Source of the DNA: Arthrobacter sp. PM3 | GTDB lineage: Bacteria > Actinomycetota > Actinomycetes > Actinomycetales > Micrococcaceae | NCBI RefSeq assembly: GCF_003352915.1 | Contig: NZ_CP022314.1 | Location: 1,770,917-1,834,916 of the forward strand | Direction: 5' to 3' | DNA: 64,000 nt | In this document: positions 23,990 through 43,374 of the stretch, piece after piece | How positions within the stretch are numbered: position 1 is the first letter of the stretch | Layout: the number at the start of each line of letters is the position of its first letter | Made by a program: the position numbers and the translations under genes | The notes under the pieces: model-generated | Told to the model about the DNA's origin: nothing | Databases searched by the model: none | The model's input: the letters and a program-made list of their open reading frames with translations, nothing else

Positions 23990-24200
23990 GTGGAGGGGGG
24001 GCCAGGGGGCGGTGGTGGCGGGTGGGGGGATGGGGATGCCCGGGTGCGGGTGCGGGTGAGGTTGGTGTTGGGGAGATGGGGGTGTCCGGGTGCGGGTGGG
24101 GTTGGTGTTGGGGAGATGGGGATGTCCGGGTGCGGGTGGGGTTGGTGCTGGAGAGGCGCGGATACCCGGGTGGAGTTGGAGCCGGGGAGATAGGGCGGAC
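23990..24200. repeat. G-rich 40-bp tandem minisatellite
   Basis: About four units begin near 24029, 24075, 24115 and 24155 (spacings 46, 40, 40). Each has the form GATGGGGATGTCCGGG followed by TGCGGGTGGGGTTGGTG. The plus strand is extremely G/T-rich with many GGG runs, so G-quadruplexes are possible. No real gene is supported; open frames here are by-products of the missing stop codons. Confidence 0.75.
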
Positions 24201-24300: not shown

Positions 24301-24975
24301 GGGAACATGCTCATTTTTGGAGCCGTTCCCCGTGGGGCATGCTCAGTCTTCGGCGCGAGGGGTGGGCATATAGGGAATATGTCCGCTGGTTGGCGGCGCG
24401 GCTGAGCATGCCCAGTCGCGGAATGGGGTCAAAAGGGGCATGTCCAGTCTTTGAGCGAGGCGAAGGGGGCATGTCCAGTCTTTGAGCGAGGCGAAGGGGA
24501 CATGTCCAGCCTCCGGGTGGGTCAAGGAGAAGTCTGGGGCGTGTTCCGTCCTCGGGCTGAGGTCAGGAAGGAGCATGTCCGGTCCTTGGGCGGGTTGAGG
24601 GGATGTCCGGTATTTCGCCGGGGTGCCCGTGTCGCATCGGGGAATTGGAAATCCCGGGTCCTTGGATGGCCGGGGTTGGGGCATGCTCATTTTTAGAGCC
24701 GTTCCCCGTGGGGCATGCTCAATCTTTGACTCGAGGAGTGGGCATATTGGGAATATGTCCGTTGGTTGGATGTGGGGTTGAGCATGCCCAGCCCCGGAGT
24801 GGGGCCGAAAGGAGCATGTCCCTGGCCTGTGGATGGCGTGGGGCATGTCCAGGCTCCGGGCGGGTCAAGGAGAAGTCTGGGGCGTGTTCCGTCCTCGGGG
24901 GAGGAGTATCAGTGGGACATGTCCAGTCCTTGGCGACGGCGCAGGAGGCGCTCGTGGGGCATGTCCATTGGCGGC
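24301..24975. repeat. Repeat array 1: phased GGGCATGTCC near-palindromes
   Basis: About 20 copies of a RGGCATGYCC-like decamer occupy this gene-free stretch. Their CATG (or CATA/TATG) cores lie at 24306, 24338, 24367, 24378, 24407, 24439, 24470, 24501 and onward, mostly 29-32 bp apart. A block of about 145 bp (24304-24448) is repeated at 24680-24824 with no gaps (offset exactly 376) and high identity. The 29-bp steps break any reading frame, so coding is unlikely. A second array of the same type lies near 43 kb. Confidence 0.85.
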
Positions 24976-42851: not shown

Positions 42852-42879
42852 CGCGGGAGCGGCCGGCCCGGTGCGACCG

Positions 42880-43280
42880 GCCGGGTGCGACCGGCCCGGT
42901 GCCACCGGCCCGCCCAGTGGGCATGTCCCCCGCCGACCGGCTGGCCCGCGGAGCATGCCCATTTTTCAAGCCGCGGATTGGGCATAGTGGCACCATGCCC
43001 AGTGCCCGCGTCACCGGGAGGGCATGTCCAGTGGCGTCGGTTCGTGCGACTGGGCATGTCCGGTGCCCGCGGCACGGAGAGAGCATGTCCGGTGGTCGCA
43101 GGTCATGCGGGTGGGTATGTCCAATGGCTGGGGCCTCGGGAGGGCATGTCCAGTGGTCGCGACACCGGGAGGGCATGCTCAGTGGCCGCGGTTCGTGCGA
43201 CTGGGCATGTCCGGTGGCCGCGGCACGGGGAGGGCATGTCCAGTGGTCGCGGTTCGTGAGACTGGGCGTGCCCACCGGAG
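42880..43280. repeat. Repeat array 2: phased GGGCATGTCC near-palindromes
   Basis: About 12 copies of the decamer GGGCATGTCC or a one-base variant. The CATG cores lie at 42922, 42954, 42994, 43023, 43055, 43084, 43116 (TATG), 43145, 43174, 43206, 43235 and 43267 (CGTG). Nearly all steps are exactly 29 or 32 bp. A CATA half-site at 42983 follows the 42954 core by 29 bp. The same relative offsets (+29, +40, +69, +101) occur in array 1 from 24338. Steps of 29 and 32 change the reading frame, so overlapping open frames are spurious. Confidence 0.9.
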
Positions 43281-43282
43281 TG

Positions 43283-43296
43283 CTAAGTATGCTTAG
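43283..43296. promoter_or_regulatory. CTAAGTATGCTTAG palindrome upstream of acyl-CoA dehydrogenase gene
   Basis: Near-perfect inverted repeat with arms CTAAG and CTTAG, 78 bases before the ATG of the acyl-CoA dehydrogenase gene. Related CTAAGCATG strings lie upstream of the DUF6458-like gene (25381), the small Rho_N-like gene (19437-19453, reversed) and the stress-protein operon (63116). It may be a shared promoter or operator element. Confidence 0.4.
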
Positions 43297-43374
43297 ATTG
43301 CTAGGCAGCGGCGCCGCCCGCCGCCGGATCCGCCCAGCAGAACCGCCGAACCCAAAGGAACACAGGCAGCCGAA

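Follow-up and report, generated by a model that had tools for sequence, protein, structure and literature searches.

The window, as the whole analysed stretch of 64,000 nucleotides from Arthrobacter sp. PM3 is called here, contains an array of short near-palindromes between a methyltransferase gene and an acyl-CoA dehydrogenase gene (start 43375; Pfam Acyl-CoA_dh_M match, 36 bits). The original prediction described twelve core-like decamers at fixed steps, and all twelve lie exactly where these steps put them (42919, 42951, 42991, 43020, 43052, 43081, 43113, 43142, 43171, 43203, 43232, and 43264). The array ends 100 bp before the dehydrogenase gene, also as predicted. The sites are core-like rather than identical, with an exact GGGCATGTCC in only 6 of the 12. 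The site at 42991 had been taken for an ordinary core, but its sequence, CACCATGCCC, forms the right-hand half of the 21-bp dyad GGGCATAGTGGCACCATGCCC, the left half of which had been overlooked. The consecutive steps of 40 and 29 bp therefore represent the 69-bp core-to-core distance of a dyad element. The features of this array and of a second one in the window are as follows:

42919..43273, no strand: whole array, a dyad element with outward arms (seen against the orthologous site in relatives without an array)
42951..43029, no strand: 79-bp dyad element, a 21-bp dyad with a 19-bp spacer and a core on either side (strict pattern match)
42980..43000, no strand: central dyad, GGGCATAGTGGCACCATGCCC
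42919..42928, plus strand: left-arm core, GGGCATGTCC, 32 bp out, with polarity contrary to the rule
43020..43061, plus strand: right arm, cores at 43020 and 43052; the first outward step is 32 bp
43081..43122, plus strand: right arm, cores at 43081 (step 29) and 43113 (step 32; GGGTATGTCC, one mismatch)
43142..43180, plus strand: right arm, cores at 43142 (step 29) and 43171 (step 29, the sole break in the alternation; GGGCATGCTC)
43203..43273, plus strand: right arm, cores at 43203 (step 32), 43232 (step 29), and 43264 (step 32; GGGCGTGCCC, degenerate)
24303..24966, no strand: second window array, comprising 14 cores and including dyad elements at 24335-24413 and 24711-24789

The decamer GRRCATGYYC occurs 28 times in the 64-kb window, where 1.99 occurrences are expected (sd 1.28), and this number was reached in 0 of 100 shuffles. 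Nine of the matches fall in the array at 42919-43273, 14 in the array at 24303-24966, and 5 elsewhere. Two other repeats lie beside the arrays: a 14-bp GC-rich tandem repeat (GCGACCGGCCCGGT) at 42859-42912, between the methyltransferase gene and the first array, and a 40-bp tandem repeat at 24023-24155, beside the second array, which includes GGGGATGTCC, a degenerate sequence related to the core.

The spacers of the array were said not to vary. Their sequences do differ, and their length is either 19 or 22 bp; within the array, they show mutual similarity with periods of 61 and 90 bp. The placement of all sites on one DNA face did not hold either, as 29 bp corresponds to 2.76 turns and 32 bp to 3.05 turns (at 10.5 bp per turn), and the sites are not all co-facial. 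CRISPR had been dismissed on the grounds of constant spacers. The conclusion is sound, but the reason is not: the cores are 10 bp long and degenerate, and the variable spacers are of two lengths and mutually similar. A coding sequence was rejected as well, in agreement with the view that the region cannot be one protein. The four open reading frames that span the array had no Pfam match, and the 29-bp steps break the frame.

The arrangement is not confined to the window. In the whole genome, GGGCATGTCC was counted 80 + 76 times, compared with 4 + 4 when read backwards. Twenty additional stretches of the genome were read, and in many arrays two cores lie exactly 69 bp apart around the inverted repeat GGRCATA-N7-TATGYCC. 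A strict pattern was defined as RRRCATGYYY-N19-RRRCA-N11-TGYYY-N19-RRRCATGYYY, with the same pattern read backwards as the control. It is present in 53 copies in the genome, and the control in none. For the array analyses, 51 of the 53 elements were used, which make up 32 dyad-bearing intergenic arrays (16 with one element, 15 with two, and 1 with five). Some other core clusters have no strict dyad (e.g., stretches L068, L070, and L072). The consensus of 102 distinct elements starts with GRRCATGYYC, and a GTAG/CGTC tag is absent. Elements within one array may agree in up to 78 of 79 positions. The best identity between elements of different arrays in this genome is 52-65 of 79, and with at most 65 positions in common, recent dispersal is not seen.

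The cores are asymmetric (GRGCATGTCC versus GGACATGCYC), and their orientation depends on the nearest dyad. Counted in the outward sense, the cores to the left of the dyad number 45 versus 6 (21 unpolar, 2 palindromic) and those to the right 48 versus 13 (27 unpolar, 4 palindromic). The exceptions, 13 of the 61 polar right-hand cores and the left-arm core at 42919, count against the model proposed below. Of the 102 arms, 64 have another exact core at a distance of up to 49 bp, and 38 have none. The first step in these 64 arms is 32 bp in 35, 33 bp in 8, and 22 bp in 4; other steps (23 bp, etc.) are less frequent, and 29 bp does not occur. The 29 arms that start with a step other than 32 bp, and the 38 that have no other core, also count against this model. 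The order of the steps was counted from the 51 elements with exact cores and steps of 29 or 32 bp only, after the removal of stretch overlap. By this count, the dyad is followed by 32 in 35 of 35 cases (20 stretches), 32 by 29 in 17 and by 32 in 1, and 29 by 32 in 6 of 6. The window array keeps this rule apart from one 29-29 break and one left core of the wrong polarity; the break lies beyond an inexact core and is therefore outside the counts. In a relative, Arthrobacter sp. H-02-3 (G252), the dyad is followed by 32 in 14 of 15 cases, 32 by 29 in 7 versus 32 by 32 in 7, and 29 by 32 in 6 of 6, so the alternation is weaker there. The spacers of the 29-bp steps (34, after removing those at least 75% alike) are similar to the 109 dyad spacers, with an approximate consensus of A-N-Y-S-S-Y-N-G-N3-C. 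This shared consensus is weak, at less than 1 bit per column, and the 22-bp spacers (69) fit it less well.

The cores are better conserved than the spacers. Alignments were made for fifteen PM3 arrays and their H-02-3 counterparts at corresponding sites, of which 11 corresponded on both flanks and 4 on one; gaps were left out of the counts. Identity was 1000/1284 in core columns, 3421/5471 in spacer columns, and 8850/11627 in the flanks, which include coding parts; of 139 cores, 87 are paired with an intact core. Among the 15 pairs, the spacers were better conserved than the cores in one and equally conserved in another. The positions of arrays may also be shared. Between the 17 arrays of MA-N2 and those of the PM3 genome or H-02-3, four intergenic sites agree on both flanks (rpsA and three others), compared with fewer than one in a rough estimate for independent random placing. 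It could be supposed that the arrays are functionless minisatellites spread by slippage, which would suit the local homogenisation inside arrays. However, the same spacing and polarity recur in arrays whose spacers are dissimilar, and the higher conservation of the cores also speaks against this explanation, which is very improbable. Part of the phase may stem from shared ancestry and from tandem duplication of 61 bp. Ordered (cooperative) protein binding, as originally proposed, appears to be the best reading, with spacing, polarity, and core conservation all extending beyond the window array.

A palindromic dyad might act as DNA or as RNA. For this reason, the arms of the same dyad were compared to see whether they match more often than the arms of different elements. 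There was no such covariation in the PM3 genome (38 elements; z -1.5 for positions 20-28 and -1.75 for positions 10-28) or in H-02-3 (22 elements; z 1.0 and -1.7). It was present in MA-N2 (17 elements; z 4.3 and 3.2), in the wider group of MA-N2 (z 4.7), and in G119 (5 elements; z 2.1 and 3.4), and the pool of 66 elements showed a small excess (z 3.2 and 2.3). Since the arms do not covary in the PM3 genome, the dyads there are read as probable double-stranded protein sites and not as RNA. The covariation in MA-N2, G119, and the pooled set suits a hairpin in those genomes and counts against a pure protein-site reading; an RNA or single-strand hairpin may have a role in the MA-N2 group.

The rpsA locus is informative about terminators. 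In genomes without elements, a terminator-like hairpin was found in 22 of 22, in a gap of 82-198 bp (hairpins were judged by eye, and not all have a T run). Among the eight bearers, six have a strict element and one a near-element behind a similar hairpin, and one (G262) was unreadable. The repeat itself was therefore rejected as the terminator: at this one locus, as judged by eye, the hairpin is retained and the element is additional. The wider proposal that the dyad is a terminator or a 3' mRNA hairpin draws on the covariation in MA-N2 and its group and on the tight fit of elements in some MA-N2 convergent gaps, e.g., 9 and 7 bp. Against it are the lack of covariation in the PM3 genome and H-02-3, the hairpins at rpsA in all non-bearers and, in front of the element, in seven of the eight bearers, and the absence of an Rfam match anywhere in the window. 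An RNA-level element is thus quite improbable.

The placement of the arrays was compared with that of gene pairs in a control of ten 10-kb stretches and the window, with home-made gene calling. In three genomes, 69 arrays lie in 29 convergent, 34 tandem, and 6 divergent gaps, compared with 23, 82, and 21 control gene pairs. The convergent excess has p = 6e-4, a value to be read with the fact that orthologous sites are not independent, and it is the only bias that exceeds the control. The counts of convergent, tandem, and divergent gaps are 12, 16, and 3 in the PM3 genome; 10, 7, and 0 in MA-N2; and 7, 11, and 3 in H-02-3. One PM3 array without a called right neighbour (two half entries) was dropped, and farther neighbours were used in five entries in which a called open reading frame overlapped the array. 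In the sampled stretches, the noise in the GC skew was too high for placing the replication terminus.

Arrays in the PM3 genome are more often tandem than convergent, which leaves room for a promoter-side role. They might be the operators of a large regulon under a clade-specific regulator, and the palindromic sites, the array positions common to several genomes, the 34 of 69 arrays in tandem gaps, and the position of the window array 100 bp before a gene would all suit such a role. Nevertheless, divergent gaps hold only 6 of the 69 arrays, the arrays exceed the usual operator size, and the flanking genes are varied, with no evident common pathway (by eye). A regulon of this kind is accordingly rather unlikely. 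No DNA-binding gene shared among the flanks was noticed around the 32 arrays of the PM3 genome, the 17 of MA-N2, and the 21 of H-02-3, by blastp clusters and by eye.

The original prediction also suggested that the window array may affect the promoter of the acyl-CoA dehydrogenase gene. A special link of this kind finds no support: an array was present at none of the 57 orthologous loci from relatives (7.8-13.3 kb), and a palindrome in front of the gene, CTAAG-TATG-CTTAG (43279-43299), is intact beside the array. The interval between the methyltransferase and dehydrogenase genes was readable in 17 of the 18 closest element-bearing relatives and is short there; 16 of these 17 retain the palindrome arms (CTAAG-N4-CTTAG), with TATG or TGTG between them. 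This palindrome is perhaps an operator or promoter of the dehydrogenase gene. The array lies between it and the end of the methyltransferase gene; a gain in the lineage of PM3 is the most parsimonious explanation.

The distribution among genomes is patchy and nearly all-or-none among close species. A search of relatives for the decamer had been proposed as a check, but the bare decamer is not diagnostic alone, because genomes of other families also hold it (often at about the level of the reversed control and up to several times above it); in 118 relatives, it was commonly somewhat above this control. The strict spaced pattern did discriminate. Of 206 genomes of the genus, 57 contain it, including PM3, and none contains its backwards control. 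The pattern and its control were both absent from 318 genomes of other genera of the family and from 273 genomes of other families of the order, both sets being samples of larger groups. Bearers include A. oryzae DSM 25586, A. humicola, P. oxydans CC185, C9C5, and MA-N2. Fifty of the 57 bearers have 13-53 copies, and seven have 1-7. Pairs of cores with a 32-bp step, used as an independent pattern, were found in 44 of the 206 genomes, 42 of them among the 57; the other two are G057 (1 copy) and G227 (4 copies). In 15 of the 57 bearers, including MA-N2, the dyads are of a solitary type without the 32-bp step, and the arms are therefore not essential. Among 50 named relatives, 19 have elements: the 18 top-ranked ones (5-38 copies) and MA-N2 (20). 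On a tree of 31 genomes (rpsA and the acyl-CoA dehydrogenase gene), presence and absence require three changes, at least two of which are forced by well-supported branches, and a single clade of bearers was rejected (AU p 3.5e-10). The trait has thus been gained or lost more than once. A phage origin was rejected, as the strict element, the three-core pattern, and the 32-bp pair all gave no match in IMG/VR contigs; a 29-bp pair occurred in four contigs, in each of which the stretch examined has 2-4 cores, and was taken as chance.

Mobility without phages has to be considered as well. In the case of a REP- or MITE-like selfish repeat, a transposase encoded at another locus would copy the dyad element to new 3' ends, and the arms would arise via tandem duplication. 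The REP-like bias to convergent gaps, the gain at the window locus, the patchy distribution, and the near-identical copies inside arrays are consistent with this. On the other hand, elements of different arrays show no sign of recent dispersal, the cores are conserved above the spacers, and IMG/VR contigs lack the strict element. The Y1 transposase (PF01797), the only family searched for, was found in 0 of 51 genomes (19 named bearers, 31 non-bearers, and PM3), while the same search was positive in 5 of 14 control genomes. By eye, no transposase was noticed among the flanking genes except for three IS3-like fragments. A selfish repeat is unlikely on this evidence. The IS3-like fragments adjoin arrays at three loci of the PM3 genome (recognised by eye), as is reported for insertion sequences that target REPs (PMC1525189).

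The arrays are very likely protein-site arrays. In the proposed mechanism, they would offer double-stranded sites to one oligomeric, sequence-specific putative DNA-binding protein, whose half-sites, GRRCA/TGYYC, adjoin directly in each 10-bp core and are separated by a further 11 bp in the central dyad. Binding would begin at the symmetric 79-bp dyad element, in which the distances between site centres are 29, 11, and 29 bp. From there it would extend both ways, in alternating steps of 32 and 29 bp, over cores whose polarity is largely fixed; the 29-bp modules have the weak spacer consensus in common with the dyad element, and the 32-bp linkers less so. The resulting nucleoprotein patch would lie by preference between convergent genes and would most likely act as a boundary between adjacent transcription units (with respect to read-through, supercoiling, or domain insulation). 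Judged from sequence, this full model of nucleation at the dyad, outward spreading, and a boundary between transcription units has about an even chance of being correct, and the boundary role, taken on its own, is a tentative proposal that is somewhat less likely than not.

REP, BIME, and REPIN elements with RAYT transposases are dispersed intergenic palindromic repeats, mostly located in convergent or tandem gaps and sometimes clustered, in the sections of the literature considered here (PMC3733652, PMC3116915). The Arthrobacter arrays are likewise dispersed, intergenic, palindromic, and convergent-biased. They differ from what these sections describe in their symmetric 79-bp multi-site element and polar phased arms, in the absence of a GTAG/CGTC tag, and in the lack of hairpin covariation in the PM3 dyads. 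With PF01797 absent from all 51 genomes, membership in the REP-RAYT group fails, and the likeness in placement remains. In Geobacter metallireducens, multicopy sites present in tens of copies, which contain short tandem repeats and are often paired, have been proposed from sequence for a putative global regulator, according to an excerpt of that study (PMC2700814). Both systems have genome-wide multicopy sites and a putative regulator proposed from sequence. The motif and arrangement differ, and dyad-centred polar arms do not appear in the excerpted description of the Geobacter sites.

Two further comparisons can be made. Iteron- and centromere-like arrays at plasmid origins and partition sites consist of direct repeats at regular distances, on which oligomeric proteins nucleate. 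In contrast, the Arthrobacter arrays occupy about 30 chromosomal places per genome and have bidirectional dyad arms with alternating 32- and 29-bp steps, and a linked initiator or partition gene was not noticed among their flanks. The p53 response element has the half-site RRRCWWGYYY, which the Arthrobacter decamer fits; the bacterial host, the spacing, and the symmetry are different, and in our view the likeness is a coincidence of short palindromes. In the open-licence PMC literature, the matches listed for the decamer concerned mainly p53 work, and nothing relevant was among those listed for Arthrobacter repeats. Among these matches, the arrays are apparently undescribed in print.

The arrays may belong to an undescribed, dispensable chromosome-organising system, found only in Arthrobacter among the genomes searched, in which a putative protein would form bidirectional patches at about 30 dyads, and the site sets and the protein would be gained or lost together. 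On the present genomic evidence, the chance of this is put slightly below even. The signal is very regular and genome-wide, with no matches in the backwards control. The patchy distribution provides natural presence/absence pairs for tracing the cognate putative protein, such as C9C5 with and YD4 without elements or MA-N2 with and Paenarthrobacter without, and the function of intergenic palindromic repeats becomes testable in an actinobacterium without the Y1 transposase. There are also variants of the element. Three genomes (G124, G158, and G005) have few elements (6, 4, and 2, respectively), with outer cores that are all perfectly palindromic, GGACATGTCC, and these are possibly a third subtype. 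The four 32-bp pairs without a strict dyad in G227 are possibly a remnant or a variant.
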